Positions 42,079 through 62,855 of a stretch of 64,000 nucleotides of DNA are shown piece by piece. The stretch's first letter is position 1. Every line of letters begins with the position of its first letter. The stretch spans positions 248,001-312,000 of the forward strand of contig NZ_RRYH01000003.1 of the NCBI RefSeq assembly GCF_004010155.1, read 5' to 3'. Origin of the DNA: Solirhodobacter olei. GTDB taxonomy: Bacteria > Pseudomonadota > Alphaproteobacteria > Rhodobacterales > Rhodobacteraceae. The notes under the pieces were generated by a model. The model was not told the origin of the DNA and made no database searches. It saw only the letters and a program-made list of their open reading frames with translations. The position numbers were made by a program, and so were the translations under genes.

Positions 42079-42285
42079 GGAATTCTCCAAAGATTTAAGG
42101 GCGGAAATGTCCGCCGGGTTTGCCTGTCAGGCGGCCTTTATGGCCGTCCCGGGGGCGGGATATCTGCGGCGGGCTGTCAGCTTCCTGACGCGTTCGGGGG
42201 CGGGTGAAATACGTTGCAATTTCTTGCCAGCCGGGGAAACTCGACGCATCGGGGCAGCATCAGACAGCCCATGGGAGGACTGCGG

Positions 42286-43620
42286 ATGATCAAGCGCGAG
42301 GCGGCCGCCCCGGCGCGGCGGATCACGGCCGAGGCGGCGGCCGCGATGGTCGAACCCGGCATGTGGCTGGACTACGGCGCGATCGTGAACCAGCCGGACG
42401 CCTTCGATGCGGCCCTGGCGAAGAGGGTCGGCGAGCTTTCCGGCATCAAGGTGCGCTCCTGCCTGACCGTCCGGCCGCGCGCGATCGTGGAGGCGGACCC
42501 GGAGGGCGCGCATGTCCATTGGGTGAGTCTGCATTTCTCCGGCTACGACCGGAAGAAGCACGACAGCGGGGTCTCCCACTACATGCCTGTGAATCTTGGA
42601 GAAATCCCGGATTACTACCGGCGCTTCATCGACCCGGTGGACATCGTCGTCATCAAGACCTGCCCGATGGACGAGAACGGCTATTTCAACTTCTCCTGCG
42701 GGACGCTCTGGCATCACGCGGTGATCGAGCGGGCGCGCTGCGTGATCGTGGAGGAATGCGAGGGGCTTCCCTACGTCATGGGGGCGGAGACCGGGGTGCA
42801 TGTCTCGGAGGTCGACTACATCATTCCCGGCGACGGCCGCGCTGCGCCGGAGCTGCCGAACCCGCCGCCCTGCGACGTGGACCGCGCCGTGGCCCGCCAG
42901 ATCTGCGCCGAGATCGACGACGGGGCCTGCCTGCAGATCGGGATCGGGGGCATGCCGAACGCCGTCTGCGGGCTGATCGCAGAGGCCGGGATCAAGGATC
43001 TCGGGATCCATACCGAGATGCTGACGGACGGGATCGTGGAGCTTTACAAGGCCGGCCTCATCACCGGGGCGAGAAAGCAGATCGACGTGGGGAAGATCGT
43101 GGCGACCTTCGGGCTCGGCTCGAAGATTCTCTACGATGCCATTGATCGCAATGCGGATTTCGACTTCCAGCCGGTGGACCATACCAACCTGCCGCACCGG
43201 ATCATGCTCAACGACAACGCGGTGGCGATCAACAACACCACGCAGATCGACCTGCAGGGACAGGCGGCCTCGGAAAGCGACGGGCACCGGCAGATCTCGG
43301 GCACCGGCGGGCAGCTGCAGTTCGTGCGGGGGAGCTATGCTTCGAAGGGGGGCAAGAGCTTCATGTGCCTGTCGTCGGTCTATGAGCGGAACGGGGTCAG
43401 GAAAAGCCGGATCGTGCCGCGGATGACGCCGGGGAATACGGTGACGACGCCGCGGACGGACATGATGTATGTGGTGACCGAATACGGGATGGTGAACCTG
43501 AAGGGGAAGTCGGTGCCGGAGCGGGCGCGGGCGCTGATCTCCATCGCCCATCCCGATTTCCGCGAGGAGCTGGAGCGGGAGGCCTACGAGGCTCGGATGA
43601 TCCCGCGGGGGTTTTTCTGA
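42286..43620 (+). CDS. Acetyl-CoA hydrolase/transferase family protein (4-hydroxybutyrate or butyrate CoA-transferase type)
   Basis: 444 residues. Conserved blocks: LDYGAIVNQPDAFDAALAKR, VDIVVIKTCPMDENGYFNFSCG, GACLQIGIGGMPNAVCGLI, and IHTEMLTDGIVELYKAG, in which the Glu is the CoA-ester nucleophile. Later blocks are GGQLQFVRGSYASKGGKSFM and MMYVVTEYGMVNLKGKSVPERARALISIAHPDFREELEREA. It moves CoA between short carboxylates. ATG 42286 follows GGGAGGAC; ATG 42271 and 42214 are in frame but lack a ribosome site. Single gene, divergent from the PepSY gene. Confidence 0.9.
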   Translation: MIKREAAAPARRITAEAAAAMVEPGMWLDYGAIVNQPDAFDAALAKRVGELSGIKVRSCLTVRPRAIVEADPEGAHVHWVSLHFSGYDRKKHDSGVSHYMPVNLGEIPDYYRRFIDPVDIVVIKTCPMDENGYFNFSCGTLWHHAVIERARCVIVEECEGLPYVMGAETGVHVSEVDYIIPGDGRAAPELPNPPPCDVDRAVARQICAEIDDGACLQIGIGGMPNAVCGLIAEAGIKDLGIHTEMLTDGIVELYKAGLITGARKQIDVGKIVATFGLGSKILYDAIDRNADFDFQPVDHTNLPHRIMLNDNAVAINNTTQIDLQGQAASESDGHRQISGTGGQLQFVRGSYASKGGKSFMCLSSVYERNGVRKSRIVPRMTPGNTVTTPRTDMMYVVTEYGMVNLKGKSVPERARALISIAHPDFREELEREAYEARMIPRGFF

Positions 43621-43903: not shown

Positions 43904-45583
43904 CTATTGGCCGGGAAACAGCGCTCTCAACTCGGCCTCGGAGTAATAGCCCATGGCGAGGTCGTGGGCGACGGCCTCGGGGTCTCGCCGGGCGGGATTG
44001 CCGTAGCCGCCGCCGCCGGGGGTGCGGACTTCGACGCGGTCTCCCGGCTTCAGGGGGATGTCCTGGGCCTTCGACAGATGCTCGGGCGTGATCGGGGTGC
44101 CGTTCTGCCAGACCGTGACCTCGTTCACCGCGCCGTCGGAGCCTCCGAGCGCGCCCTGGGGGCCGAAGCGGCCGTGGTCCATAACGAAGCTCGCGCGGGC
44201 CTCTCCACGGCGAAGCTCGACCATGTAGTCGAGCCCGAAGCCGCCGCGGTGCTCGCCCGCGCCGCCGGAGCCCTCGCGCAGGCGGTAGTGGTGGTAGAGG
44301 ACGGGGAACTGCTGCTCCATGATCTCGACCGGCGGCGCCTTGGAGATGCCGATGGTGGAGCAGCCGTTGGAGATGCCGTCGCCCGAGGCCGCGCCGCCGT
44401 AGCCGCCGCCCGAAAGCTGGTACATGACGAAGTCGCGCCCGGTTTCCGGATCGTGGCCGCCAAGGGCGAAGTTGCCCGAGGTGCCGGCAGGGGCGGCGGT
44501 GACGCGCTTCGGCAGGGCCGGGGCGAGTGCGGCGAAGACGGCCTCCGCGATCCTCTGGGAGACCTCGGCCGCGCAGCCGGAGACGGGGCGGGGGTAATGC
44601 GCGTCGAGGAAGGTGCCCTCGATGCCCGTCACCTCCAGCGGTTCGAAGGCGCCGGCGCTGATCGGGACCTCGGGGAAGATGTGGCGCATGGCGAGGTAGA
44701 CGGAGGAGAGGGTTGTGGCCCTGACCGAGTTCATCGGTCCGGTGCAGGGGGCGGAGGAGCCGGTGAAGTCGAAGCGGAGGCCCTCGCCCTGCCGCGTGAC
44801 GGCAAGGCGGATGGCGAGCGGTTCGTTCACCACGCCGTCGCTGTCGACCCAGGCGGTGGCCTCGTGGCGGCCCTCCGGTATCTCGGCGATGAAGCTTTCC
44901 ATCTGGCGGGCGGCGCGGCGGCGCAGCTCGGCAATGGCCCCGGCCACGGTGTCGTCCCCATAGCGGTCCATCAGGGCGGAGAGGCGCTCCTCTCCCACCA
45001 TCAGCGCCGCCGCCTGCGCCTTCACATCGCCGATGCGTTGCGAGGCGACGCGGATGTTGGAACAGATGATGGCGTAGATCTCGGCGTCGAGCGTGCCTTC
45101 CTTGAAGAGGCGCACCGGGGGCAGGCGCAGGCCCTCCTGCTCGACAGAGGTGGCCGAGGCGGAGAAGCCGCCGGGCACCGCGCCGCCGGTGTCGGGCCAG
45201 TGGCCGGTGTTCGACAGCCAGCAGAAGATTTTTCCGCCCCGGTAGAAGGGCTTGGCGAAGCGCACGTCCATCAGGTGGGTGCCGCCGAGGTAGGGGTCGT
45301 TGACGATGTAGATGTCGCCGGGTTTCGGGGCTGCGGCCTCTCCCTTCGCGATCATGGCGATCAGCGTGCGGGTGGAGGCCTGCATGGTGCCGACGAAGAC
45401 CGGAAGGCCGCCCGCGCCTTGCGCGATCAGGCTGCCGTCGGCGGCGTCGTAGATCCCGTCGGAGCGGTCGTTGGCCTCGGCGATCACCGGCGAGAAGGCG
45501 GCGCGGGAGAAGGTGAGGTCCATCTCGTCGCAGACCTGCTGCAGGCCGGCCTCGATGACCGAGAGCGTGATCGGGTCGATCAT
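43904..45583 (-). CDS. hyuB: Hydantoinase/oxoprolinase family protein B subunit
   Basis: 559 residues, complete hydantoinase B fold: ITLSVIEAGLQQVCDEMDLTFSRAAFSPVIAEANDRSDGIYDA, GDIYIVNDPYLGGTHLMDV, SNTGHWPDTGGAVPGGFSASATSVEQEGLRLPPVRLF, NIRVASQRIGDVKAQAAAL, and GISKAPPVEIMEQQFPVLYHHYRLREGSGGAGEHRGGFGL. With HyuA it hydrolyses cyclic amides (hydantoins, 5-oxoproline, lactam-like rings) using ATP. The ATG overlaps the hyuA stop (ATGA). Which ring is opened cannot be read from the sequence; the neighbouring operon suggests an N-heterocycle. Confidence 0.92.
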   Translation of the reverse strand: MIDPITLSVIEAGLQQVCDEMDLTFSRAAFSPVIAEANDRSDGIYDAADGSLIAQGAGGLPVFVGTMQASTRTLIAMIAKGEAAAPKPGDIYIVNDPYLGGTHLMDVRFAKPFYRGGKIFCWLSNTGHWPDTGGAVPGGFSASATSVEQEGLRLPPVRLFKEGTLDAEIYAIICSNIRVASQRIGDVKAQAAALMVGEERLSALMDRYGDDTVAGAIAELRRRAARQMESFIAEIPEGRHEATAWVDSDGVVNEPLAIRLAVTRQGEGLRFDFTGSSAPCTGPMNSVRATTLSSVYLAMRHIFPEVPISAGAFEPLEVTGIEGTFLDAHYPRPVSGCAAEVSQRIAEAVFAALAPALPKRVTAAPAGTSGNFALGGHDPETGRDFVMYQLSGGGYGGAASGDGISNGCSTIGISKAPPVEIMEQQFPVLYHHYRLREGSGGAGEHRGGFGLDYMVELRRGEARASFVMDHGRFGPQGALGGSDGAVNEVTVWQNGTPITPEHLSKAQDIPLKPGDRVEVRTPGGGGYGNPARRDPEAVAHDLAMGYYSEAELRALFPGQ

Positions 45584-47625
45584 GCCGCCCCTCCCAGCGT
45601 TATGAGGATGTTGCCGTCGGCGTCGGTCCCGGCCCGGTCGCCGGGCTCGATGACGGTGGTGGTGTCCATCTGCTCCAGGATCGCGGGGCCGGTCAGCGCC
45701 GCGTCGGCGGGCAGGTGGTCGCGCCAGTAGACCGGCGTCTGGTGCCAGGCGCCGGCGAAGCGGACCCGGCGGGTGCCGGTCTGCGCCTCTGCCAGGGTGG
45801 CGCGGCGCTGGGCGGGGTCGATCAGGGTGGAGAGGTCGAGCGCGGCGCGGGTGCCGATGACCGAGGTGTTGGCGTTGACCACCGCCGCCGCGGCACCGGG
45901 CAGGCGGATGCGGAAGCGGTTGTAATAGACCTCCTCGAAGCGGGCGAGCAGGGCCTCGCGGGTGATCTCGGGCCCGTCGAGCGGGACGCGGAGGAGGTGG
46001 GTCTGGCCGCGGTACTGCATGTCGACCGAATGGAGGCGGCGGAGCGCGCGCAGGGCGACCGGTTCGGCGCGGATCAGGCGCTCGCCTTCGGTGGCCTGCT
46101 CTTCCAGCGTTTCGGAAAGCCGCGCCATATCAAGGGTGTCGAGGGGCGTGTTCAGCGTGTGGACGAAGTCGTGGCGGAGGTCGGCGACGGTGCAGCCGAG
46201 CGCATTTGTGATGCCCGGGCGGGCCGGGATCAGGACGCGGGGGATGCCGAGTTCACGCGCCAGCGCCGTTGCGTGGAGGGGGCCCGCGCCGCCGAAGGCG
46301 AAGAGCGTGAAATCCCGCGGGTCGGCCCCGAGCGAGACGGAGACCATGCGGATCGCGCCGGCCATCCTAATGTTGGCGAGGCGGATCACCGCCTCTGCCG
46401 CGTCGAGGGCGGAGAGATCCAGGGGTTTGCCGAGCTTTTCGGCGAAGGCGGCCTCGACGGCGGCGAGGGGGGTGGCGGAGGCGGTGAACTTAGCCGGGTC
46501 GAGGCGGCCGAGCAGCAGGTTCGCGTCGGAGATCGTGGGCTCCGTTCCGCCGCGCCCGTAGCAGATGGGTCCGGGCTGGGCGCCGGCGCTTTCGGGGCCG
46601 ACGGCCAGCAGGCCCGCGGCGGTGACGCGCGCGATGGAGCCGCCGCCCGCGCCGACGGTCCTCACGTCGACCATCGGGACGTGGATCGGCATGGCGTATT
46701 CGATCTCGATCTCGTTCGAGACCGGCGGCTCTGCGCCGCGGATCAGGGCGACGTCGGTGGAGGTGCCGCCCATGTCGTAGGTGATGAGGTTGGCAAGGCC
46801 TGCGCGGCGGCCGGTATAGGCGGCGGCCATGACGCCCGAGGCGGGGCCGGACATCACCGTCTTGGCGGCCTCGCGGCTGACGGTGAGGGCGGAGACCATG
46901 CCGCCGTTGCCGTTCATCACCAGCACCTCGCCCCTGTAGCCGCCTTGGGCCAGCTCGCCGGTCAGCCGGGCGAGGTAGCGTTCGAGGAGCGGCTGGACCG
47001 AGGCGTTGACGGCGGCTGTCACGCCGCGCTCGAATTCCCGGCTTTCGGAGAGGAGGGAATGGCCGGTGGTGATATGGGCGTTGGGCCAGAAACGGGCGAG
47101 GATCTCTGCCGCGCGCCGCTCGTGGGCGGGGTTCGCGTAGGCGTGGAGGAAATGGACCACGACGGAGACGCAGCCCTCGTCGAGGAGCTGGCGGCCGGCG
47201 GCCTCGACCGCGGCCTCGTCAAGCGGGATCAGCGGGTGGCCGGTGGCGTCCATCCGTTCTGGCACCTCGAGGCGGAGGTTGCGGGGGATGACCGGCGTGA
47301 AGCTGCCCGTCATGCCGTAGGCCTGCGGCCGCGTGCGGCGGCCAAGCTCGAGGATGTCGCGGAAGCCCTGCGTGGTGATCAGGCCGGTCTTCGCCAGTTT
47401 CCGCTCCAGCACCGCGTTGGTCGTGGTGGTGGTGCCGTGGACGATCAGCGCCGTGGCGGGCAGGTCGGCGCCGGCGGCAGTGAGCGCGGCGAGCACGCCG
47501 TGGGCCTGGTTTTCCGGCGTGGTCGGGACCTTGGCGAGGCGGACGGCGCCGCTTTGCGGGTCCGTCAGGATCAGGTCGGTGAAGGTTCCGCCGACGTCGA
47601 CGCCGATCAGCTGGCCCTCGGCCAT
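45580..47625 (-). CDS. hyuA: Hydantoinase/oxoprolinase family protein A subunit
   Basis: 681 residues, ASKHA ATPase fold: N-terminal phosphate loop IGVDVGGTFTDLILTD, VHGTTTTTNAVLERK, TTQGFRDILELGRRTRPQAYG, second ATP segment YDMGGTSTDVALI, VDVRTVGAGGGSIARV, GPGPICYGRGGTEPTISDANLLLGRL-like block, FAFGGAGPLHA. It phosphorylates the cyclic amide to activate it for hydrolysis by HyuB. First gene of hyuA-hyuB. A GTTTGTATGC element (minus strand) stands 21 bp before the ATG and is repeated before the divergent Mo-hydroxylase operon. Confidence 0.93.
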   Translation of the reverse strand: MAEGQLIGVDVGGTFTDLILTDPQSGAVRLAKVPTTPENQAHGVLAALTAAGADLPATALIVHGTTTTTNAVLERKLAKTGLITTQGFRDILELGRRTRPQAYGMTGSFTPVIPRNLRLEVPERMDATGHPLIPLDEAAVEAAGRQLLDEGCVSVVVHFLHAYANPAHERRAAEILARFWPNAHITTGHSLLSESREFERGVTAAVNASVQPLLERYLARLTGELAQGGYRGEVLVMNGNGGMVSALTVSREAAKTVMSGPASGVMAAAYTGRRAGLANLITYDMGGTSTDVALIRGAEPPVSNEIEIEYAMPIHVPMVDVRTVGAGGGSIARVTAAGLLAVGPESAGAQPGPICYGRGGTEPTISDANLLLGRLDPAKFTASATPLAAVEAAFAEKLGKPLDLSALDAAEAVIRLANIRMAGAIRMVSVSLGADPRDFTLFAFGGAGPLHATALARELGIPRVLIPARPGITNALGCTVADLRHDFVHTLNTPLDTLDMARLSETLEEQATEGERLIRAEPVALRALRRLHSVDMQYRGQTHLLRVPLDGPEITREALLARFEEVYYNRFRIRLPGAAAAVVNANTSVIGTRAALDLSTLIDPAQRRATLAEAQTGTRRVRFAGAWHQTPVYWRDHLPADAALTGPAILEQMDTTTVIEPGDRAGTDADGNILITLGGAA

Positions 47626-47646
47626 GGCTGCCTCCGGAGATTGTTC

Positions 47647-47656
47647 GCATACAAAC
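47647..47656 (-). promoter_or_regulatory. GTTTGTATGC element before hyuA
   Basis: On the minus strand GTTTGTATGCGAACAAT lies 21 bp before the hyuA ATG. It contains TTGT-N6-ACAA, a short inverted repeat of MarR-operator type. The same 10-mer stands before the Mo-hydroxylase operon (48331-48340). It could be an operator or a shared -10-like element. Confidence 0.5.
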
Positions 47657-47707
47657 GATGCCCGGCGGCGGGGCGCCTGTCAACGGGGCTGGCGGGGTGG
47701 GGCGGGC

Positions 47708-48133
47708 CTAGCCGAGCCGGGTGAGGAGGGCGAGGAAGGTCTCGGCCTCGTCCTCGGTCAGGGGGGCGAGGGTTTCGCTGGTGATGCGATGGGCGGAGGG
47801 GCGGGCCCTCGCGTAGGCGGCCTTGCCCTCCGGCGTGGGGGCGAGGACGAGGCGGCGGCGGTCGGCGGCATCGGGCAGGGCCGCGACGAGGCCCTTGTGG
47901 CGGAGGCGGTCGACCACGCCCTTGATCGTCGCCGCGTCCATCGAGGTGGCGCGGCCGAGGGCGTTCTGCGAGATGGGGCCGAGCTCGCAGAGCTTGGCGA
48001 GGGCGGCGAACTGGGTGGGGGTGAGGCCGGGGAGCTGCGCGGCGAAGATCGCCAAGTGGCGCTGGTTCGCCCGGCGCAGGAGGAAGCCGACCTGGATGTC
48101 GAGCTGATAATCGTCGGGCGGTGTATGATCCAT
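47708..48133 (-). CDS. MarR-family transcriptional regulator
   Basis: 141 residues: DYQLDIQVGFLLRRANQRHLAIFAAQLPGLTPTQFAALAKL, then the winged helix ISQNALGRATSMDAATIKGVVDRLRHKGLVAALPDAADRRRLVLAPTPEGKAAYARA, where the DxRRxxL wing is typical of MarR. Such regulators bind short palindromes and release them with small aromatic or heterocyclic ligands. It lies between hyuAB and the Mo-hydroxylase operon and probably controls both. ATG 48133; the upstream gap holds a related GTTTGTGCAAGC (48159-48170). Confidence 0.9.
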   Translation of the reverse strand: MDHTPPDDYQLDIQVGFLLRRANQRHLAIFAAQLPGLTPTQFAALAKLCELGPISQNALGRATSMDAATIKGVVDRLRHKGLVAALPDAADRRRLVLAPTPEGKAAYARARPSAHRITSETLAPLTEDEAETFLALLTRLG

Positions 48134-48158
48134 GCGGGAATGATCCCGCCCCGGGCGG

Positions 48159-48170
48159 GTTTGTGCAAGC
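48159..48170 (-). promoter_or_regulatory. Possible third MarR site, before the marR gene
   Basis: The plus-strand sequence GTTTGTGCAAGC shares GTTTGT with the elements before hyuA and the Mo-hydroxylase operon and lies 26 bp upstream of the regulator's own start. Only a weak match; a guess at autoregulation. Confidence 0.25.
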
Positions 48171-48241
48171 GGATTTGGGGGGGCGGGCGGTGTGGGCTTG
48201 GTGGTGAGGAGGCCGGGGGAAGGCGTGGACGCCGGGGCAAG

Positions 48242-48265
48242 GTGCGCAATGAATGCGCACCCTAC
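48242..48265. repeat. 24-bp palindromic repeat, copy 2 of family A
   Basis: Identical over all 24 bases to 43819-43842 (GTGCGCA-ATGA-ATGCGCAC then CCTAC). It lies in the divergent gap between marR and the Mo-hydroxylase operon, about 65 bp upstream of the GTTTGTATGC element. Confidence 0.85.
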
Positions 48266-48330
48266 GGCGGGCCCGGGCCCGCGGGTGCCATTTTGAATTG
48301 ACAGGGCGGGGGAGGCGGACGCAGGATAAT

Positions 48331-48340
48331 GTTTGTATGC
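48331..48340 (+). promoter_or_regulatory. GTTTGTATGC element before the Mo-hydroxylase operon
   Basis: The 10-mer is identical to the one before hyuA and ends 28 bp before the TTG start of the FAD subunit gene. The flank TGTATGCTAAT could also serve as an extended -10. Confidence 0.5.
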
Positions 48341-48368
48341 TAATGAATATCTGACCGGGGAGGCAGAG

Positions 48369-49202
48369 TTGGCCGAGTATGTCCGGCCCCGCAGCCTTGA
48401 GGAGGCGCTGGCGATTGCCGGGCGCGGGGCCAAACCGCTTGCGGGCTGCACCGATCTTTTCCCGGCGACGGACCGGCCGGCGCTCGGGGGGGCGCTGCTC
48501 GATCTGACAGGGGTCGAGGGGCTTTCGGGGATCACGAGGACCGACCGGGGCTGGCGCATCGGGGCGGTGACGCGCTGGGCCGAGGTGGCGGGCGCCGCGC
48601 TGCCGCCCGCCTTCGACGGGCTCCGTGCGGCGGCGCGCGAGGTCGGGGCGATCCAGATCCAGAACGCGGGAACGGTGGGCGGCAATCTCTGCAACGCCTC
48701 TCCGGCGGCCGACGGGGTGCCGCCGCTGCTGACGCTCGACGCGAGGGTAGAGCTCGCCTCTGCCGCCGGGCGGCGGGAGATGGCGCTGGCGGAGTTCGTC
48801 ACCGGGCCGCGGAGGACGGCGCTGGCGGAGGGGGAGATCCTGACGGCGGTGATCGTGCCCGAGCCGGCGGGGCGCGGGGCGTTCCTGAAGCTCGGGGCGC
48901 GGTCCTCGCTGGTGATCTCCATCGTCATGGCGGCGGGGCGGATCGACGTGGCCGGGGGCCGGGTGGCGGAGGCGGCGTTCTCTGTCGGGGCGTGTTCGCC
49001 CGTGGCGGTGCGGCTGCCGGCGCTGGAGGCGGCGCTGGCGGGGCTGCCGGTGGCGGAGGCCGCGGACCGCGTCGAGGCGGGGCTGGTAGTGCCGGCGCTC
49101 TCGGCGCTGAGCGACCTGCGGGCGGAGGCCGGCTATCGGGCCGAGGCCTCGGTGGTGCTGATCCGGCGGCTGGTGGCCGGGCTGACGGGAGGGGCGGCAT
49201 GA
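48369..49202 (+). CDS. FAD-binding subunit of xanthine-dehydrogenase-family hydroxylase
   Basis: 277 residues, CoxM/XdhB type: YVRPRSLEEALAIAGRGAKPLAGCTDL (first FAD loop), IGAVTRWAEVAG, AAREVGAIQIQNAGTVGGNLCNASPAADGVPPLL (second FAD loop TVGGNLC), AFLKLGARSSLVISIVMAAGRID. It passes electrons from the Fe-S clusters of the partner to an acceptor. The start is taken as TTG 48369 because GGGGAGG stands 5 bp before it; upstream in-frame codons run through the promoter element. It overlaps the next gene by 4 bp (ATGA). Confidence 0.88.
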   Translation: MAEYVRPRSLEEALAIAGRGAKPLAGCTDLFPATDRPALGGALLDLTGVEGLSGITRTDRGWRIGAVTRWAEVAGAALPPAFDGLRAAAREVGAIQIQNAGTVGGNLCNASPAADGVPPLLTLDARVELASAAGRREMALAEFVTGPRRTALAEGEILTAVIVPEPAGRGAFLKLGARSSLVISIVMAAGRIDVAGGRVAEAAFSVGACSPVAVRLPALEAALAGLPVAEAADRVEAGLVVPALSALSDLRAEAGYRAEASVVLIRRLVAGLTGGAA

Positions 49203-51934
49203 ACCGGCGGGCGGATATGGTGGAGCTGACGGTCAACGGCGCCCGGGTGGCGGTGGCGGCGGACCCCGCGCGGCGGCTTTCGGAGGTCCTGCGCGAGGAT
49301 CTGGGGCTCCGCGGCACCAAGGTCGGCTGCGACGCGGGCGATTGCGGGGCCTGCACGGTGCGGGTCGACGGCGCGGCGGTCTGCGCCTGCCTGATGCCCT
49401 TCGGCCAGGCCGTGGGGCGGAATGTCGAGACCGTCGAGGGGCTGGGGGGAGAGCGGCTCTCGGCCCTGCAGGAGAGCTTTCTGCGCCACGGGGCGGCGCA
49501 ATGCGGGATCTGCACGCCGGGGATGCTGATGGCGGCGGCGGTGCTGCTGGACGCGGTGGCGCAGCCGAGCCGGGCGCAGGTGGAAGACGCGCTGGCGGGC
49601 GTTCTGTGCCGCTGCACGGGCTACGCGGCGATCGTCGATGCGGTCGTGGCGGTGGGCCAGGGCGCGGCCGGGCCGGTGCCGGAGGCGGGTGCTGCGGTGG
49701 GCCAGCGGGTCGAGCGGCTCGACGGGCGGGCGAAGGTGACGGGGGCGGAGGCCTTCGGGGCCGATGCGGCGCCGGAGGGGGCGCTGGTCGCCCGCGCGGT
49801 GCGCTCGCCCCATTTCGCGGCGCGGTTTTCCTTCGGCGACCTGGCGGGCTGGGCCGCGGCGCGCGGCGTCGAGGTGTTCACCGCCGCGGATATCGAAGGG
49901 ATCAACAGCTTCGGCGTGATCCCCGATTTCGCCGATCAGCCGGCGCTGGCGGAAGGCGAGGTGCGCTTCCGCGGCGAGGCGGTCGCGGTCGTCGCGGGCG
50001 AGGCGGAGATGATGGCGGCGCTCGATCTGGGCGATTTCCCGGTGAGCTGGGTGCCGCTGGAGGCGATCACCGATCCGGGCGCGGCCATCGGCGGGCGGCC
50101 GGTGCTGCCGTCGCGGTCCCAGAACGTGCTGGTGCGCGGCCGGGTGGCGCGGGGTGCGCCGGAGGCGGCACTGGCGGGCGCGGCGGTCGTGGCGGAGGCC
50201 GAGGTCCGCACCGCCTTTGTCGAGCATGCCTATATCGAGCCGGAGGCGGGTGTGGCCTGGATGGAGGGCGACGTGCTCGCCATCCGCGCCTGCACCCAGG
50301 CGCCGGGGATGGACCGGGCGGATGTGGCCCGCGTCCTCGGCCTTCCGGCGGAGCGGGTGCGGATCATCCCCTCGGCCACCGGCGGGGGGTTCGGCTCGAA
50401 GCTGGACCTGTCGCTGCAGCCGCTGATCGGGCTGGTGGCGCTGAAGACGGGGCGGGCCTGCCGGATGGTCTATTCGCGAGCGGAATCGCTGCAATCGACC
50501 ACCAAGCGGCATCCGGCGCGGATGACCGGGCGGATCGGGACGGATGCGGCGGGACGCGTCACGGGGATGGTGTTTCAGGGCGCCTTCGACACCGGGCCCT
50601 ATGCGAGCTGGGGCCCGACGGTGGCAAACCGGGTGCCGGTCCATGCCTCCGGCCCGTACCTGACGCCCAATTACCTGGCCGAGACAGTGGCCCTGCACAC
50701 CAACAACCCGGTCTGCGGCGCGTTCCGGGGTTTCGGCGTGCCGCAGGCGGCGCTGCTGCAGGAGCTTCTCTACGACGACCTCGCCGGGCGGCTGGGGATG
50801 GACCGGCTGGCCTTCCGGCAGGTCAATGCGCTGCCGGAGGGCGGGCCCTCCGTCTGCGGGCAGGAGATGCGGGGCGTCGGCATCGGCGCCTGCCTCGACG
50901 CGCTGGCGCCGCGCTGGGCGGAGGCCTTGGGCGAGGTCGAGGCGTTCAACGCGGGGGGCGGGCGCAGCCGCCGCGGGATCGGGGTGGCGAGCTGCTGGTA
51001 CGGGTGCGGGAACACCGCGCTGCCCAACCCCTCGACGATCCGGATCGGGATCACGCGGGATGGGCGGCTGAGGCTGCACCAGGGGGCGACGGATATCGGG
51101 CAGGGCTCCAACACCGTGATCGCGCAGATCGCGGCGGACGGGCTGGGCGTGGCGCTGTCGGCGATCGAACTCATCGGGCCGGATACCGCGCTGACGCCGG
51201 ATGCGGGCAAGACTTCTGCCTCGCGCCAGACGGTGGTCACCGGCAAGGCGGCGCTGAGGGCGGCCGAGGCGCTGCGCGCGGCGATCCTCGGGCGGACGAA
51301 CAAGGGGCCGGAGGCGCGGATCGCCTTCGGGCCGGGCCGGGTGCTGGTGAGCGATGCCACGGGGACGGCGGAGATCGCGCTGGCGGGCCTTGCCGAGGAT
51401 GCGCGGGGCTATGTGCTCTCTGTTGAGGAGAGCTATGACCCGCCGACGCTGGCGCTGGACGAGAACGGGCAGGGCTCTCCCTATGCCGTCTACGGCTACG
51501 GCGCGCAGATGGCGGAGGTCGAGGTGGACATGGAGCTCGGCACCGTGAAGGTCACGCGGATCACCGCGGCGCATGACCTTGGCCGGGTCATCAACCCGAT
51601 GCTGGCCGAGGGGCAGATCGCGGGCGGGATCGCGCAGGGCCTCGGGATGGCGCTGATGGAGGATTACGTGCCGGGGCGGACGGAGAACCTGCACGACTAC
51701 CTGATCCCCACCGTGGGCGACATGCCGGAGATCGTGCCGATCCTGATCGAGGTGCCGGACCCGGAGGGGCCCCTGGGCGCCAAGGGCCTTGGCGAGCATG
51801 CGCTCATTCCGACGGCGCCGGCGATCCTGTCGGCGGTGCGCCATGCCTCGGGCGCGCGCATCACGCGGCTGCCGGCGCTGCCGCACCGGGTGCTGGCGGC
51901 GATCCGGGCGCCCGGGCAGGAGGCCGCGAAATGA
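49199..51934 (+). CDS. Molybdenum hydroxylase, fused 2Fe-2S and molybdopterin-binding subunits
   Basis: 911 residues. Residues 8-85 are a plant-type 2Fe-2S domain (Cys44, Cys49, Cys52, Cys64); 90-160 hold the second cluster (Cys102, Cys105, Cys137, Cys139). The rest is the xanthine-dehydrogenase Mo domain: ATGGGFGSKLD, GAFRGFGVPQAALL (the FRGFG Arg of purine/N-heterocycle hydroxylases, not the CO-dehydrogenase Cys loop), QGATDIGQGSNTVIAQ, and the catalytic Glu in KGLGEHALIPTAPAI. It hydroxylates a ring carbon next to nitrogen or an aldehyde with water as oxygen source. The single-chain fusion recalls aldehyde oxidoreductase, but a separate FAD subunit is kept here. Confidence 0.9.
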   Translation: MNRRADMVELTVNGARVAVAADPARRLSEVLREDLGLRGTKVGCDAGDCGACTVRVDGAAVCACLMPFGQAVGRNVETVEGLGGERLSALQESFLRHGAAQCGICTPGMLMAAAVLLDAVAQPSRAQVEDALAGVLCRCTGYAAIVDAVVAVGQGAAGPVPEAGAAVGQRVERLDGRAKVTGAEAFGADAAPEGALVARAVRSPHFAARFSFGDLAGWAAARGVEVFTAADIEGINSFGVIPDFADQPALAEGEVRFRGEAVAVVAGEAEMMAALDLGDFPVSWVPLEAITDPGAAIGGRPVLPSRSQNVLVRGRVARGAPEAALAGAAVVAEAEVRTAFVEHAYIEPEAGVAWMEGDVLAIRACTQAPGMDRADVARVLGLPAERVRIIPSATGGGFGSKLDLSLQPLIGLVALKTGRACRMVYSRAESLQSTTKRHPARMTGRIGTDAAGRVTGMVFQGAFDTGPYASWGPTVANRVPVHASGPYLTPNYLAETVALHTNNPVCGAFRGFGVPQAALLQELLYDDLAGRLGMDRLAFRQVNALPEGGPSVCGQEMRGVGIGACLDALAPRWAEALGEVEAFNAGGGRSRRGIGVASCWYGCGNTALPNPSTIRIGITRDGRLRLHQGATDIGQGSNTVIAQIAADGLGVALSAIELIGPDTALTPDAGKTSASRQTVVTGKAALRAAEALRAAILGRTNKGPEARIAFGPGRVLVSDATGTAEIALAGLAEDARGYVLSVEESYDPPTLALDENGQGSPYAVYGYGAQMAEVEVDMELGTVKVTRITAAHDLGRVINPMLAEGQIAGGIAQGLGMALMEDYVPGRTENLHDYLIPTVGDMPEIVPILIEVPDPEGPLGAKGLGEHALIPTAPAILSAVRHASGARITRLPALPHRVLAAIRAPGQEAAK

Positions 51935-53409
51935 GCGAGGCGCCGGACCTGCGCGGCGATACCTCGGGCGGCACCCCGCATGAGGGCCGGGTGCGGGCGG
52001 AGAAGATCCGCTGCGATGCCTGCCCCGTGATGTGCTACATCGCCGAGGGTCAGGCCGGGGCCTGCGACCGCTATGCCAACGAGGCGGGACAGATCATCCG
52101 GGTCGATCCGCTGACCGTCTTCGACCGGCGGCTGGCGGCGGGGGACGAGATCCGGCCGTTTCTGGCGGGTGAGGCCGGGGCCGGGGCGGGCGGCGATCTG
52201 GAGATCACCGCCATCGGGGCGGGGACGACCTATCCCGATTACAAGCCCGCGCCCTTCATCGTCAGCCGCGAGATCGAGGGGGTCGACACGGTCACGGTCG
52301 TCACCGAGGCGATCTACTCCTATTGCGGCGTGAAGGTGAAGATCGACACCGACCGGCATATCGGCGAGGAGGCCTCGGTCGTCCGGGCCGGGGGCGAGGC
52401 GGTGGGTCTGGTGATGACCTCGGAATACGGGTCCCGCATGCTGTCGCTGGGGGGCGTCGATCACCTCACCGGCGGCACGAAGGCGGAGGGGCGGGCGACG
52501 CTTTCGACGCTGATGGACCTCTGCAACCGCAAGCCCGTGGAGCTGTCGGTGGAGGGCGGCGCGACGCTCATCGTCGAGGCCGGGAAGGCGCCGGTGGTCG
52601 ACGGGGTGCCGGAGGCGCGGATGCGGGTCGGCTGCGGATCGGCCACCATCGGGATGTTCGCGAGCCAGTGGCAGGGCCTGGTCGACGAGGTGGTGGTGGT
52701 CGACGACCATATCACCGGCGTCGTGAGCGAGCATCAGGCGGGCAAGGTGCTGGGCTGGCCGGATACCGGGATCAGGATCCTGGGCCACCGCTCCACCCCG
52801 GGGCGGTATTTCCGGGTGGCGGGACCGGGGCTCGGCTGGGGCGGCACGGATATTTCCGACCCGCTGGCGATCCTCGGCGAGTGGCGCGCGGCCAAGGGCG
52901 CGCGGCCGGGGCTGACGCTGCTGATGGTCTCCACCACCGGCGAGCATTCGGGGTTCTACGAGCTTGACGCCGATCTGCGCCCGGTGGCGCGGGAGATGCC
53001 GGAGGCGCTCAGCGCCTCGGTCGCGCTGATCGCGGAGAACTGCGAGCCGGCGCTTTGCACCGTGATGTTCGTCGCGGGCTCCGGCGGGTCGCTGCGCTCG
53101 GGGGTGACGCGGAACCCGGTGCGGCTGACCCGGGCGGTGCAGGCGGGACGCGTCAAGGTCTCCTGCGGCGGGGCGCCGTGCTACATCTGGCCGGGCGGCG
53201 GGATCACCATGATGGTCGATGTGATGCAGGTGCCGGAGGGGGCCTTCGGATCGGTGCCGACGCCGGCCCTGGTGGCGCCGCTGGAGTTCACCATGGCGCG
53301 GGACGACTACCGCGCGATCGGCGGGCATGACGCGGCGGTGCGGAGCCTTGCGGATGTGCTGGCGAAGGGCGGCGACTACGGCAGCGCGGTCCGGGCGCTC
53401 GGGCCATGA
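51931..53409 (+). CDS. 6-hydroxynicotinate-reductase-like iron-sulfur flavoprotein
   Basis: 492 residues. The N-terminal cluster motif CDACPVMC plus Cys45 (Cys28, 31, 35, 45) suits a 4Fe-4S centre; further Cys are in VGCGSATIG, AENCEPALC and SCGGAPCYIWPGGG. The family takes its name from Hnr of Eubacterium barkeri, which reduces 6-hydroxynicotinate to 1,4,5,6-tetrahydro-6-oxonicotinate and was reported to contain covalent flavin and several Fe-S clusters. The protein has no signal or membrane helix, so it is cytoplasmic. It overlaps the Mo-hydroxylase and UPF0280 genes by 4 bp each. The substrate is inferred as a hydroxylated N-heterocycle. Confidence 0.75.
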   Translation: MSEAPDLRGDTSGGTPHEGRVRAEKIRCDACPVMCYIAEGQAGACDRYANEAGQIIRVDPLTVFDRRLAAGDEIRPFLAGEAGAGAGGDLEITAIGAGTTYPDYKPAPFIVSREIEGVDTVTVVTEAIYSYCGVKVKIDTDRHIGEEASVVRAGGEAVGLVMTSEYGSRMLSLGGVDHLTGGTKAEGRATLSTLMDLCNRKPVELSVEGGATLIVEAGKAPVVDGVPEARMRVGCGSATIGMFASQWQGLVDEVVVVDDHITGVVSEHQAGKVLGWPDTGIRILGHRSTPGRYFRVAGPGLGWGGTDISDPLAILGEWRAAKGARPGLTLLMVSTTGEHSGFYELDADLRPVAREMPEALSASVALIAENCEPALCTVMFVAGSGGSLRSGVTRNPVRLTRAVQAGRVKVSCGGAPCYIWPGGGITMMVDVMQVPEGAFGSVPTPALVAPLEFTMARDDYRAIGGHDAAVRSLADVLAKGGDYGSAVRALGP

Positions 53410-54221
53410 GCGCGGTGGCGGCAAGGCTGCCCGACGGACGGCGGCTGCATCTGCAGCACGGGCCGATCGACCTGATCGTGGAGGCCGACGCGGGCCATCG
53501 CGAGGCGGCCTACGCGCGGGCCTCGGCCCGGTTCGCGACGGTGCTGGACGAGCTGGTGGCCGAGCTGCCGGTGCTGCGGCAGCCGGCGGGGACGGGGGTG
53601 CTTCGCGGTCCGGTGGCGCGGCGGATGGAGGCGGCGTGCCTGCCGCATCTGCCGGTCTTCGTGACGCCGATGGCGGCGGTCGCCGGGGCGGTGGCCGACG
53701 AGATCCTGGCCGCGATGGCCGGGGTTACGGGCCTGGAAAAGGCATGGGTGAACGATGGCGGGGATATTGCGCTGCATCTGACCGGGGCGGAACGCTTCAC
53801 GGCCGCGATGGCGGGTGGCCGGGTGGAGATTTCGGCCGCGGATCCCTGGCGCGGGGTCGCGACGTCGGGCTGGCGGGGGCGGAGCCATTCGCTGGGGATC
53901 GCCGACGCGGTGACGGTGATCGCCGGGACGGCGGCCGCGGCCGATGTGGCGGCGACGCTGATCGCCAACGCGGTAGACCTGCCGGGCCATCCCGGGATCG
54001 CGCGGCGGCCCGCCTGCGAGCTTGCGCCGGACAGTGACCTCGGCGCGCGGCCGGTGACGGTGGGCGTGGGGCGGCTTTCGCCCGGCGAGGTGGCCGAGGC
54101 GCTGGTCCGCGGGCTGGCGGTGGCCGAAGAGATGCGGGCGGGGGGGCTGATCGGCGCGGCCTTCCTGGCCCTGAACGACCAGACCTGCGCCACGGCGCTG
54201 AAGGAGCTCAACCATGCCTGA
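53406..54221 (+). CDS. UPF0280 (ApbE-like fold) protein, possible flavin transferase
   Basis: 271 residues. UPF0280 belongs to the ApbE-like structural superfamily as I recall. ApbE-type landmarks are visible: FVTPMAAVAGAVADEILAAM, a NxGGD-like VNDGGDIALHL (116-120), ATSGWRGRSHSLGIADAVTVIAGTAAAADVAATLIANAV (152-190), which parallels the STSG...H..DP and ADA.AT.L stretches of ApbE. ApbE attaches FMN covalently to Ser/Thr of target proteins. Here the gene is coupled (ATGA) to the Hnr-like reductase, whose relative carries covalent flavin. Function is inferred, not known. Confidence 0.85.
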   Translation: MSAVAARLPDGRRLHLQHGPIDLIVEADAGHREAAYARASARFATVLDELVAELPVLRQPAGTGVLRGPVARRMEAACLPHLPVFVTPMAAVAGAVADEILAAMAGVTGLEKAWVNDGGDIALHLTGAERFTAAMAGGRVEISAADPWRGVATSGWRGRSHSLGIADAVTVIAGTAAAADVAATLIANAVDLPGHPGIARRPACELAPDSDLGARPVTVGVGRLSPGEVAEALVRGLAVAEEMRAGGLIGAAFLALNDQTCATALKELNHA

Positions 54222-54795
54222 CTTTCCGATCCGCAAGACCATGATCTTCGTCGAGGACATCCATCACGACGGCGGGCCGGTGGCCAAGCTGCCGCGGCGG
54301 CGGGCGGCGATCGTGGCTGTGGTCGCGAACCCCTATGCCGGGGCCTATGTCGAGGACCTGGCGCCGGGGATGGAGGCGCTTAAGCCCCTCGGGCTGATGA
54401 TGACGGACCGCCTTATCGAGGCGATGGGCGGGATCGAGGGGATCGACGGCTACGGCAAGGCCGCCATGGCGGGCGAGGCGGGCGAGCTGGAGCATTCCGC
54501 GCTCTGGCATGTGCCGGGCGGCTATTCGATGCGCGAGCGGCTGGGAGAAGCGAAGGCGATCGTGCCGTCCTCGATGAAGGTGGGCGGGCCGGGGACGCGG
54601 ATCGACATCCCGCTTGGCCATATCAACGCGGCCTATGTGAGAAGCCATTTCGACGCGATGGAGGTCGGGCTGCCGGATGCGCCGAAGGCGGGGGAGCTGA
54701 TGTTCGCGCTCGCCATGTCGCGCGGCGGGCGGGTGCATGACCGGATGGGCGGGCTTGCCGTCGCGGATGTGAAGGGGCTCGACGGATTGCGGTAG
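54214..54795 (+). CDS. PF06684 amino acid synthesis family protein (DUF1185)
   Basis: 193 residues: IRKTMIFVEDIHHDGG, RRAAIVAVVANPYAGAYVEDLAPGM, GIDGYGKAAMAGEAGELEHSALWHVPGGYSMRERLGEAKAIVPSSMKVGGPGTRIDIPLGHINAAYVRSHFDAMEV. This is the PF06684 family, whose solved members have a chorismate-mutase/YjgF-like trimer fold and no proven activity. It overlaps UPF0280 by 8 bp with AAGGAG at 54201, ending the five-gene operon. The pairing with an Hnr-like gene suggests a role in handling a ring-reduced intermediate. Confidence 0.85.
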   Translation: MPDFPIRKTMIFVEDIHHDGGPVAKLPRRRAAIVAVVANPYAGAYVEDLAPGMEALKPLGLMMTDRLIEAMGGIEGIDGYGKAAMAGEAGELEHSALWHVPGGYSMRERLGEAKAIVPSSMKVGGPGTRIDIPLGHINAAYVRSHFDAMEVGLPDAPKAGELMFALAMSRGGRVHDRMGGLAVADVKGLDGLR

Positions 54796-54846
54796 GGGCG
54801 CTGGCCCGGCGAGCTGCGCCCGCTGTTTCGGGCCGGGGGCCGGGGG

Positions 54847-56322
54847 TCAGGGGCGGGTACGGCAGTCCCTCAGACCCTCGACCGGGGTGGCCGTGTAGCG
54901 CTCGATCACGGCGCCTCGGGAGCGGCGGGCGAGGGGAACCGTCGCGCCGTGGCTTGCGAAGCGGGCCAGGCTTGCCGGGGCCGGGGCGCCGACGGTGACG
55001 AGGAGCGCGGGCTCGGCGCAGAGCGCCTTCGGCAGCGGACCGCGGAACAGGTAACGCCGGGCGCCGGTCAGCGACCAGACCGGCAGGTCGGTCATGTACC
55101 AGGTGAGTGAGCCGGTCAGGCCATAGGCGTCTGTGGCGATCCAGCGGGCCTTTGCGTCATGGGCCTCGTTGGCGATGTCGGCGGTGAAGGCAGTCCAGCC
55201 CTTGGTCTCGTTCGGGGGATTGCGACCGGGGAAGACCGGCACGCCGGGGCGGAAGGCCAGCGTCAGGGCCAGCGCCCCGAGGGCGAGGCCGCTGCCGGCG
55301 GCGATCCAGGTGGCCCGGCGCGTGCGGGTGCGCAAGCCGAGCGCGGCGAGGACGGCGGCCATCGGGTAGAGCGGCGCGAGCCAGTTGGCCTGCACCTTCG
55401 CATGCATCGCGTGGAGCGCCATGTAGGCCAGCAGCGGCAGGCTGAGCCACAGAAGCAGGCGGGCGGCCCCCTTCGCACGCAGGGCGCCGAAGCAGGCGGC
55501 GGCGAAGATGAGCGGCGTGGTCAGCAGCACCGTCGTCACGACGTAGCCCAGAAGGCCGGTCGGGTGCGGCGGGGCGGCGGCGTCGAGCCGGCCGAACTGG
55601 CGGGTGAGACCGGCGTAGTGATGCGCGAAGTTCCAGCGCGCCATCGGTACGAGGACGAGCAGCGCGAGGCCCGCAGAGGCCCAGACCGCCGGACGGCGGA
55701 GCGCGCGGCGGCCCCGGGGCGTGGCGACCAGCCAGCCCGCGAGGCCGAGCCAGAGGAAGAGGTTGGTGAATTTCGACAGCACCCCCAGCCCGGCCCCGAG
55801 CCCGGCGAGGAGCCACCACTGCGCGGTCTCGATGCGTGGACCCGTCGCCGCCTGCGCCTCCATCACCGCCCAGGCGGTGAGCGCCCAGAAGAAGACGGAG
55901 GGCGCATCCGGTGTCGCGGTGAAGCCGAGCGCGAGGATCGGCAGCGTGGCGTTCAGCATCAGCGCCGCCGCGCGCGCGGTGCGGCGGTTGCCGCCGGCCA
56001 GCAGGGCGATGCGGCCGACCAGCATGGTTGTGGCGGCAAAGCCGAGGATGGGGAGGAGGCGCACGCCGAGGCGGGTCGCGCCGAAAAGCGCCTCTCCCCC
56101 CGCAATCCACCAGGCGATCATCGGCGGGTGGTCGTAATAGCCCGCCGAGGGCACCGTGGCCCAGAGGGCGTAATAGGCCTCGTCCTCCACCAGCGGGATC
56201 GCCAGGGCGAGGGCGAAGTGAAGCGCGAGGAAGACGAGCGCGGTCCAGGCGACGGGCGGAAGAGGCAGGGCGGCGGGGGCGGTCGGGGCCTCTATCCGGC
56301 CGAGGGTCTGGTCGCTGGGCAT
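54847..56322 (-). CDS. ArnT/GT39-like membrane glycosyltransferase
   Basis: 491 residues with 10-12 membrane helices and the PMT_2 signature: LALAIPLVEDEAYYALWATVPSAGYYDHPPMIAWWIAGGEALFG (acidic catalytic Asp/Glu in VEDEAYY), GRIALLAGG, TATPDAPSVFFWALTAW, GLGAGLGVLSKFTNLFLW. A periplasmic C-terminal domain follows. Such enzymes move a sugar from a polyprenyl phosphate to lipid A, glycan or protein. The GT2-GtrA gene that probably makes the lipid-linked sugar is divergent next door. Confidence 0.87.
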   Translation of the reverse strand: MPSDQTLGRIEAPTAPAALPLPPVAWTALVFLALHFALALAIPLVEDEAYYALWATVPSAGYYDHPPMIAWWIAGGEALFGATRLGVRLLPILGFAATTMLVGRIALLAGGNRRTARAAALMLNATLPILALGFTATPDAPSVFFWALTAWAVMEAQAATGPRIETAQWWLLAGLGAGLGVLSKFTNLFLWLGLAGWLVATPRGRRALRRPAVWASAGLALLVLVPMARWNFAHHYAGLTRQFGRLDAAAPPHPTGLLGYVVTTVLLTTPLIFAAACFGALRAKGAARLLLWLSLPLLAYMALHAMHAKVQANWLAPLYPMAAVLAALGLRTRTRRATWIAAGSGLALGALALTLAFRPGVPVFPGRNPPNETKGWTAFTADIANEAHDAKARWIATDAYGLTGSLTWYMTDLPVWSLTGARRYLFRGPLPKALCAEPALLVTVGAPAPASLARFASHGATVPLARRSRGAVIERYTATPVEGLRDCRTRP

Positions 56323-60180: not shown

Positions 60181-60186
60181 TCCACC

Positions 60187-60210
60187 GAGGGGGGCCCTGC
60201 GGGGCCCCTC
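60187..60210 (+). terminator. Hairpin between binding protein and first permease genes
   Basis: GAGGGG...CCCCTC with an inner CCC-TGCG-GGG stem stands 7 bp after the binding-protein stop and is followed by ATTTCC. Such processing or partial-termination hairpins let the binding protein be made in excess over the permeases. Confidence 0.55.
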
Positions 60211-60283
60211 ATTTCCAGAAAACGGCTGTCCTCGGCCCGCGTTTGCATCGCGGGCCGGTTCGCAACATCAGAGCGCTGGACGT

Positions 60284-61150: not shown

Positions 61151-61152
61151 CC

Positions 61153-62109: not shown

Positions 62110-62855
62110 GCTTCCTGAAAGTCGAGAACGTCTCCAGGCACTTCGGCAACCTGGTTGCCGTGGACGGGGTGTCGATGACGGTGGAGCCGGGCGAATGCCG
62201 GGCGGTGATCGGGCCGAACGGCGCGGGAAAGACCACCTTCTTCAACCTGATCACCGGGATGCTCGGCCTGACCACGGGCCGGGTGCTGCTGGAGGACAAG
62301 GACCTGGCGGGGATCGACCCGACGCACCGGGTGAAGCTTGGCATGGCGCGGACCTTCCAGATCACCGAGATCTTCCCGGAGCTGACGGTGAGCGAGAACA
62401 TCCGCATCCCCGTCGAGACCGCGGCGGGCCTGTCGATGAAAGCCCGGATGTCGGCCTCGCAGAGGTCCGGCGTGCGGCAGCGCATCGACCAGCTTCTGGA
62501 GGAGGGCGGGCTCTCCCGGATCGCGCATCGCTATGCGGGGGAGCTGTCCCACGGCGACCAGCGGGCCACCGAGATCATGATGGCGCTGGCGCTGAACCCG
62601 CGGCTTCTGCTGCTCGATGAGCCGACGGCGGGGATGGGCGATGACGAGACCCATGCCGTCGCCCGGCTGATCAAGCGGATCCACCGCGAGAGCCGCATGA
62701 CCATCGTGCTGATCGAGCATGACATGCGCGTGGTCTTCAACCTGGCCGACAAGATCACCGTGCTGGCCGAAGGCCGCCCGCTGGCCGAAGGCACGCCGGC
62801 GGAAATCACGGCCAACGCAAAGGTCCAGGCGGCCTATCTTGGGGGGGCGGCATGA
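62106..62855 (+). CDS. livG: ABC transporter ATPase, LivG family
   Basis: 249 residues: Walker A GPNGAGKTT, Q-loop in ARTFQITEIFPELTVSENIRIPVE, signature LSHGDQR (LSGGQ variant), Walker B LLLLDEPTAGMGDDE, and H-loop VLIEHDM. Together with the next gene it powers uptake. The serine-to-histidine change in LSHGD is common in the LivG family. The ATG overlaps the livM stop. Confidence 0.95.
   Translation: MSFLKVENVSRHFGNLVAVDGVSMTVEPGECRAVIGPNGAGKTTFFNLITGMLGLTTGRVLLEDKDLAGIDPTHRVKLGMARTFQITEIFPELTVSENIRIPVETAAGLSMKARMSASQRSGVRQRIDQLLEEGGLSRIAHRYAGELSHGDQRATEIMMALALNPRLLLLDEPTAGMGDDETHAVARLIKRIHRESRMTIVLIEHDMRVVFNLADKITVLAEGRPLAEGTPAEITANAKVQAAYLGGAA

Follow-up and report, generated by a model that had tools for sequence, protein, structure and literature searches.

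How is a reduced nicotinate ring opened in a genome that encodes the enzymes expected to hydroxylate and reduce it, and that gives no match to the enamidase of the known pathway? This question is raised by a block of eight genes at positions 43904 to 54795 of a 64,000-nucleotide stretch of Solirhodobacter olei DNA, the whole of which is referred to here as the window. The block encodes a two-subunit HyuAB-type enzyme, a MarR-family regulator, a two-subunit molybdenum (Mo) hydroxylase, a protein resembling 6-hydroxynicotinate reductase (Hnr), and members of the families UPF0280 and PF06684. Our analysis indicates that the locus is likely to serve a MarR-controlled, reductive nicotinate catabolism that passes through 1,4,5,6-tetrahydro-6-oxonicotinate (THON), with HyuAB in the place of the enamidase. 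It represents a real and widespread variant of that pathway in which the ring opener is exchanged; the novelty lies in ring opening, for which the known pathway uses the enamidase. The evidence that carries this conclusion is the complementary distribution of the two enzymes: in an even sample of 289 genomes from the Alphaproteobacteria, the class of the window, Hnr was found in 51, and 30 of these contain a HyuA ortholog, 21 contain an enamidase, and none contains both or neither (Fisher p 9e-15, without correction for kinship).

The genes form two divergent strand groups, hyuB-hyuA-marR on the minus strand and the remaining five on the plus strand:

43904-45583, minus strand: hyuB, metal-binding HyuB/CapB-type subunit (PF02538, 526 bits; PDB 6yra_B, E 1.5e-73), proposed subunit B of the THON ring opener
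45580-47625, minus strand: hyuA, ATP-binding HyuA/CapA-type subunit (PF05378/PF01968; PDB 7hk5, 6yra), proposed subunit A of the THON ring opener
47647-47656, minus strand: operator-like 10-mer GTTTGTATGC upstream of hyuA
47708-48133, minus strand: marR (PF01047, 42 bits), MarR-family regulator, putatively controlling both operons
48331-48340, plus strand: operator-like 10-mer GTTTGTATGC upstream of the FAD gene and the hydroxylase-hnr operon
48369-49202, plus strand: FAD subunit of the Mo hydroxylase (PF00941, PF03450; FAD_binding_5 family), TTG start
49199-51934, plus strand: fused 2Fe-2S/molybdopterin subunit (PF00111, PF01799, PF02738, PF20256; PF01315 below cut-off), proposed nicotinate 6-hydroxylase
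51931-53409, plus strand: Hnr, 6-hydroxynicotinate reductase-like, with orthologs annotated under that name
53406-54221, plus strand: UPF0280 (NCBIfam NF003322, 357 bits, cut-off 290), remote ApbE relative, proposed flavin transferase or maturation factor for Hnr
54214-54795, plus strand: PF06684 (AA_synth, DUF1185; 229.8 bits, cut-off 27; PDB 3byq, 2qtp), proposed to convert the opened chain

The five plus-strand genes overlap successively by 4, 4, 4 and 8 bp. This overlap, and the divergence of marR and hyuAB from the five-gene operon, had been noted in a preliminary description made from the sequence alone, and both were confirmed by the coordinates and strands. The start of the FAD gene, which had been placed at the first TTG of its open reading frame, was corrected to the TTG at 48369, which follows a GGGGAGG ribosome site (read by eye); the frame itself opens at 48333. 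The family names given earlier agree with the Pfam and NCBIfam searches, in which the Pfam matches were Hydantoinase_A/B, FAD_binding_5, Fer2/MoCoBD, MarR and AA_synth and UPF0280 was matched by its NCBIfam model only; the exception is Hnr, which was matched by no Pfam or NCBIfam model and owes its name to annotated orthologs. These are 55-82% identical, and most of the plasmid records listed annotate them as 6-hydroxynicotinate reductase; the identity of Hnr was judged from these orthologs.

In the proposed route, the Mo hydroxylase, consisting of the FAD subunit and the fused 2Fe-2S/Mo subunit, would turn nicotinate into 6-hydroxynicotinate, and Hnr would reduce this compound to THON. The six-membered enamide lactam THON would then be opened by HyuAB with ATP to give 2-(aminomethylene)glutarate, from which the loss of ammonia would presumably yield 2-formylglutarate. 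UPF0280 would attach flavin to Hnr, PF06684 would act on the opened chain by deamination or decarboxylation, and MarR would control both operons. The first-step hydroxylase is present by family match, and its substrate assignment is putative. The order of hydroxylation, reduction and opening had been suggested before, and it fits the evidence.

The preliminary description had staked its reading on the co-occurrence of the block with HyuAB, and it withstood this check. In the 289-genome sample, a HyuA ortholog (E <= 1e-240) was found in 33 genomes, namely the 30 with Hnr and 3 of the 238 without it, and the enamidase (E <= 1e-170) was found in 22, of which 21 carry Hnr; at looser limits the genomes lacking Hnr gave 9 and 3 matches. 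The HyuA limit was chosen after the table had been seen. At the looser value of 1e-190, 39 genomes contain HyuA, still 30 of them with Hnr and with no enamidase overlap among the latter, and the enamidase was found in the identical 21 Hnr-bearing genomes at 1e-90 and at 1e-170. A second set of 65 Hnr-bearing genomes, made up of 49 of 80 named loci and all 16 other Hnr-bearing relatives of the window's genome, gave HyuA in 55 and the enamidase in 10, with both in 3 and neither in 3, so that the combined 116 genomes comprise 82 with HyuA only, 28 with the enamidase only, 3 with both and 3 with neither. Within the 143 loci that were read, hyuA is present in 51 and the enamidase gene in 16, and no locus has both. 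The window's own genome contains HyuA, and the absence of an enamidase that had been noted earlier extends beyond the window, as no match to the PDB 2VUN family was found at E <= 1e-90 in the whole genome. Judged by its sequence, the enzyme replaced by HyuAB is the enamidase. In a betaproteobacterial plasmid locus (L192) with no hyuAB in the stretch, the amidohydrolase beside hnr has enamidase 2VUN as its best PDB match (E 2.4e-111).

Beyond this sample, Hnr occurs in 19 of 61 genomes consisting of the window's own and its relatives, and in at least 586 stretches of a public collection of genomes; 80 of these stretches were retained. Among 63 HyuA-type loci of at least 18 kb, 58 contain the FAD gene, 58 the Mo gene, 63 UPF0280, 47 PF06684 and 44 a marR ortholog; the corresponding numbers for 23 enamidase-type loci are 21, 22, 23, 15 and 20. 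Several gene orders join HyuAB to Hnr, for example the run hnr-UPF0280-PF06684-hyuA-hyuB (L190). In two plasmid loci (L191, L194), genes annotated nicA/nicB lie near hnr and hyuAB, with no close FAD/Mo pair in the stretch; the name of the L194 pair is that of the depositors, since NCBIfam gives it no nicotinate-specific name. Hnr genes are present on 26 of 72,556 plasmid records, one of them typed as conjugative (Sagittula stellata), and the cluster may therefore move between strains. A second PF06684 paralog (aas2, a best-match label) was seen in 20 of the 23 enamidase-type loci (among L029-L037 and L171-L189) and in 2 of the 63 HyuA-type loci.

The two types of locus are interleaved on the Hnr tree. 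For 102 Hnr proteins (77 HyuA type, 25 enamidase type), a quick LG+G4 tree without bootstrap requires 7 changes of type, at least 5 of which are forced by starred branches, and the families f1, f32 and f93 each contain both types. When phylogenetically independent pairs were drawn from 107 rows, HyuA and the enamidase changed in opposite directions in an average of 5.9 pairs and in the same direction in 0, and 1.1 pairs showed no difference (sign test, median p 0.031). Three loci with hits that were too short (L153, L180, L029) and the Hnr-bearing genomes without a fetched locus were left out of the tree, and the 3 rows with both enzymes and 2 with neither enter the pairs test only. Because Hnr proteins of the two types interleave, the reaction product of Hnr is most likely identical in HyuA-type and enamidase-type organisms, and HyuAB is best read as carrying out the step of the enamidase with ATP. 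Taken together, the exclusivity and the at least five switches argue that HyuAB most likely replaces the enamidase and would hydrolyse THON with ATP.

The same observations bear on the explanation that HyuAB is a co-regulated neighbor with a separate role, such as hydantoin or 5-oxoproline use, whose link to Hnr reflects chance or shared ecology. HyuAB families are common, and hyuA lies beyond the stretch read in 31 of the 63 HyuA-type loci, as this explanation would allow. The full complementarity with the enamidase in 51 of 51 Hnr-bearing genomes, the presence of Hnr in 30 of the 33 genomes with a HyuA ortholog, the several linked gene orders and an operator in common make it highly improbable.

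The catalytic residues of HyuAB are conserved. Both HyuA and HyuB domains are present with their ATP-site and metal-site residues. The metal ligands D39, H103, D106 and H128 of HyuB are kept relative to PDB 6yra_B and are conserved in all 41 copies from Hnr loci, including that of the window. The ATP-site residues D10 and D284 of HyuA correspond to D11 and D295 of CapA, and among 48 Hnr-locus copies, the window's included, D284 is found in 48 and D10 in 44 (4 gaps). Relatives of HyuAB hydrolyse lactams with ATP, which caprolactamase uses because the hydrolysis of caprolactam is uphill by 23 kJ/mol (PMC8453981), and the ATP-dependent OplAB opens delta-valerolactam, whose ring has six members as in THON (PMC11033972). 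The enamidase hydrolyses THON itself, the reduced ring (PMC9304392). Among the titles and abstract openings of the matches listed from the open-licence literature, a search that mostly excluded subscription papers and preprints, no link between HyuAB and nicotinate was found.

The use of ATP suggests another possibility, in which HyuA-type organisms reduce the ring once more and HyuAB opens 6-oxopiperidine-3-carboxylate, ATP being required because this lactam, unlike the enamide THON, is stable. Stable saturated lactams suit ATP-dependent hydrolysis, as the caprolactam energetics and the activity of OplAB on delta-valerolactam indicate. Against this, no additional reductase family stood out in the HyuA-type loci (where annotation is incomplete), and the window's Hnr shares 55-74% identity with Hnr proteins of either type, so that we consider a further reduction quite unlikely.

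The starting compound of the pathway is probably nicotinate itself. A nicotinamidase gene is present in 35 of the 143 loci, and one copy passes NF008623 with 217 bits against a cut-off of 174. These loci are mostly mesorhizobial, with others scattered more widely, for example in Pararhizobium, SAR116, Limibaculum and Notoacmeibacter; those with an assigned type comprise 14 of the HyuA type and 1 of the enamidase type. In addition, 6-hydroxynicotinate has been reported as an intermediate of nicotinate degradation in a bradyrhizobial strain whose Hnr cluster spans the first three steps (PMC3511419). A different N-heterocycle, such as another pyridine carboxylate or an N-methylated pyridine, might instead be degraded, its reduced lactam being opened by HyuAB. 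This would agree with the breadth of the Mo hydroxylase and HyuAB families, with the lack of a pncA match in the window by tblastn, with a nearby transporter that is not the common one of the cluster, and with a HyuAB substrate that is not readable from the sequence. It is unlikely in view of the interleaved Hnr proteins of the two types, with most likely the same product in both, the known action of the enamidase on THON, and the nicotinamidase genes with the types of their loci. The preliminary description had proposed that either the substrate or the ring-opening step would be new; the almost one-for-one exchange with the enamidase and the nicotinamidase genes strongly favor the second of these, a new ring-opening step.

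Several observations weigh against the replacement of the enamidase by HyuAB in a nicotinate pathway. Three Mesorhizobium genomes contain both enzymes; their enamidases are 60-62% identical to the query, compared with 65-75% in enamidase-only genomes. Neither enzyme was found in three Hnr-bearing genomes, namely G020, G035 and a SAR116 assembly of 2.2 Mb for which no completeness is stated. Of these, G035 is 97% complete and is a true, unexplained exception, while the hnr gene of G020 (L021 / L038) contains five in-frame stops, and the pathway there may be decaying. A HyuA ortholog occurs without Hnr in G139, G227 and G302, and an enamidase without Hnr in G109. In one locus (L153, G065:C1:2969814-2971195), the hnr match falls into two overlapping, frameshift-like pieces, with a HyuA ortholog about 6 kb away. 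The HyuA-type loci in which hyuA was not reached by the stretch read count on this side as well, and the kinship-corrected test is based on about 6 informative pairs. The substrate of HyuAB cannot be read from its sequence because the nearest characterised relatives act on other lactams and the caprolactamase equivalogs NF050156 and NF050157 matched at full length with 488 and 298 bits, short of the cut-off of 1000 bits. The cluster's usual transporter binding protein is not clearly in the window. Finally, as all operator hits before hyuA fall among the 35 copies described below, 26 of those 35 copies are without an operator.

The 10-mer GTTTGTATGC that had been described as shared by the two divergent operons is weak evidence in the window alone, where 3 hits at <=1 mismatch were matched in number by 3 of 100 shuffles, and it proved to be real across loci. 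The operator is a near-palindrome, about TTTGYATRCRAA. Regions within approximately 140 bp upstream of genes were scanned for sites with <=2 mismatches to TTTGTATGCNAA, with one plain shuffle each. Of 121 regions upstream of the FAD gene, 79 contain this form (shuffled 3/121); it was also found before hyuA in 9 of 51 (shuffled 0), and before the transporter binding-protein gene and the cluster fpr genes in 11 of 37 and 3 of 23, respectively (shuffled 0 each). Operon-internal genes gave 0/126, 0/138 and 0/87 (shuffled 0, 2 and 1), and the remaining hits were before marR (30/101, a region that in many loci is partly shared with the one upstream of the FAD gene), hnr (9/143) and the enamidase gene (3/15). 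All 9 hits before hyuA belong to the 35 copies without a listed same-strand gene close upstream, compared with 0 of 16 internal copies. An exact scan of 20 genomes gave 9 hits, 3 before the FAD gene, 2 before hyuA, 1 before fpr and 3 before no searched gene, whereas with a backwards control pattern the number was 23, of which a single genome (G001) accounted for 19; it is the multi-locus scan, not this exact scan, that carries the argument for the operator. In summary, the distribution of the site supports, and does not prove, a single MarR regulon for ring hydroxylation, reduction and HyuAB.

In the window's own genome the exact operator has three copies, before hyuA, the FAD gene and fpr. 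The last, a ferredoxin-NADP reductase gene, has a perfect operator about 50 bp upstream (C34:80900; L001 1501-1512). All 28 genomes searched have the gene, and fpr-like genes occur in 23 of the 143 cluster loci. As six genomes of the same genus have no operator before fpr (best 5 mismatches), its membership in the regulon is regarded as a lead only.

Covalently bound flavin has reportedly been described for the Hnr of E. barkeri, and the origin of such a flavin is made directly testable by the pairing of Hnr with UPF0280: of the 289 genomes, UPF0280 (E <= 1e-8) is found in exactly those 51 that have Hnr and is absent from the remaining 238. On account of this shared distribution and a remote homology to ApbE, it is plausible that UPF0280 transfers flavin to Hnr. 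The UPF0280 profile aligns with ApbE (PF02424) over 95 columns that include the TSG and AD-x-x-AT segments (hhalign 95.95%, E 5e-9), and it also aligns with PDB 2o34, which was deposited as 'Hypothetical protein'. Ser154 and Asp180, at the positions of the catalytic Ser and Asp of ApbE, are invariant in 58 of 58 proteins. A candidate flavinylation site in the window's Hnr, S387-L-R-S-G-V-T393, resembles the ApbE target motif; the relaxed form S-L-R-[SA]-G-V-T is present in 58 of 59 Hnr proteins, and T393 is likewise kept in 58 of 59.

There is, in our judgment, an even chance that UPF0280 is not a flavin transferase and is another Hnr-specific factor, involved in cluster assembly or a substrate step or acting as a chaperone. 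The remote homology, the invariant Ser and Asp, the relaxed motif and the covalent flavin reported for the E. barkeri protein argue against such a role, and other features argue for it. Position 161, which corresponds to the His of the Asp-Ser-His catalytic triad of ApbE (PMC12052999), is F, L, H or Q in most UPF0280 proteins and is not conserved. The canonical target D-x-x-[ST]-G-A-[ST] was found in 0 of 59 Hnr proteins, and UPF0280 had no Pfam ApbE match at E <= 1. With respect to the target, a review states that replacement of its Asp has minor effects and that a change of Ala to Val approximately halves flavinylation. A single-sequence structure prediction of UPF0280 reached a pLDDT of only 36.7. 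The word UPF0280 appeared in no paper of the open-licence literature searched, which again left subscription papers and preprints mostly outside.

The AlphaFold2 model of Hnr (pLDDT 79.8, pTM 0.76) gave no indication of function because no PDB fold matched it at E <= 0.001, and a search of the Hnr profile against PDB sequences found nothing. Seven Cys residues of Hnr are invariant (28, 31, 35, 45, 132, 235 and 371). A combined proposal, in which two unrelated THON openers, a metal amidohydrolase and the ATP-driven HyuAB, interchange in the Alphaproteobacteria, UPF0280 is an Hnr-dedicated ApbE branch that flavinylates Thr393 within the non-canonical motif S-x-x-[SA]-G-V-T, and the fold of Hnr is new to the PDB, is offered tentatively, since we doubt somewhat that all of its parts will hold together.

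An ABC transporter and a CoA-transferase-like gene near the block were considered as parts of the pathway and left out. Many relatives have a branched-chain-type ABC transporter inside the cluster. The transporter of this type in the window (58912-63574, plus strand), lies approximately 4 kb downstream; its binding protein is 28% identical to the usual one, and it is not clearly the transporter of the cluster. An acetyl-CoA hydrolase/CoA-transferase-like gene beside hyuB (42214-43620, plus strand; TIGR03948, 476 bits, below the 674.8 cut-off) has no match in the 143 Hnr loci. A gene of unknown function lies beside the transporter binding-protein gene in another locus (L193, 14897-16270) and is matched in 29 of the 143 loci, its own included, the others being 26-78% identical; a 345 aa representative of a family at a similar position (L041) had no Pfam match. 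Elsewhere in the window's own genome (C29:147429-147736; L197, L198), a second PF06684 match extends over two frames and is probably frameshifted or degraded. In terms of base composition, positions 44001-56000 of the window have a G+C content of 0.72-0.74 and a GC skew of 0.15-0.18, and the rest has mostly 0.65-0.70 with a skew below 0.10, except for the first 4 kb (G+C 0.73, skew 0.14).

If the proposed pathway is correct, it would provide a substrate for a widespread HyuAB subfamily that is now annotated as hydantoinase or acetophenone carboxylase, and it would place UPF0280 and PF06684, both of unknown function, in a single pathway. Roseobacters, SAR116 bacteria and mesorhizobia could then draw on vitamin B3 (nicotinate) for nutrition through reactions that enamidase-based genome searches would overlook. 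The one-for-one swap of unrelated enzymes would also be an unusually clean case of non-orthologous replacement.

Among known systems, the nicotinate fermentation cluster of E. barkeri (Alhapel 2006) reportedly includes nicotinate dehydrogenase, Hnr and enamidase. The locus described here resembles it in the logic of a Mo hydroxylase followed by Hnr and in a ring-opening step on THON, and differs from it in that the window's genome has HyuAB without an enamidase (E <= 1e-90) and a fused 2Fe-2S/Mo subunit. The SG-6C cluster, of the Azorhizobium/Bradyrhizobium type, is described as extending over the first three steps and would therefore have a ring-opening enzyme, the place of which is taken by HyuAB in the window (PMC3511419). 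CapAB, OplAB and N-methylhydantoinase are similar to HyuAB of the window in their two subunits, their ATP site (D10, D284) and their metal site (D39, H103, D106, H128), and CapAB is distinguished from it by the sub-cut-off equivalog scores and by the predicted enamide lactam substrate of the window's enzyme. UPF0280 is like the ApbE flavin transferases (PF02424) over the 95 aligned columns, and differs in having no Pfam match and an unconserved His. The PF06684 protein belongs to the same family as BB2672 and SPO0826 (PDB 3byq, 2qtp; full-length E 2.4e-50). A 2010 paper suggested from context a role of this family in amino-acid metabolism (PMC2954203), whereas its context in the window would be nicotinate breakdown.

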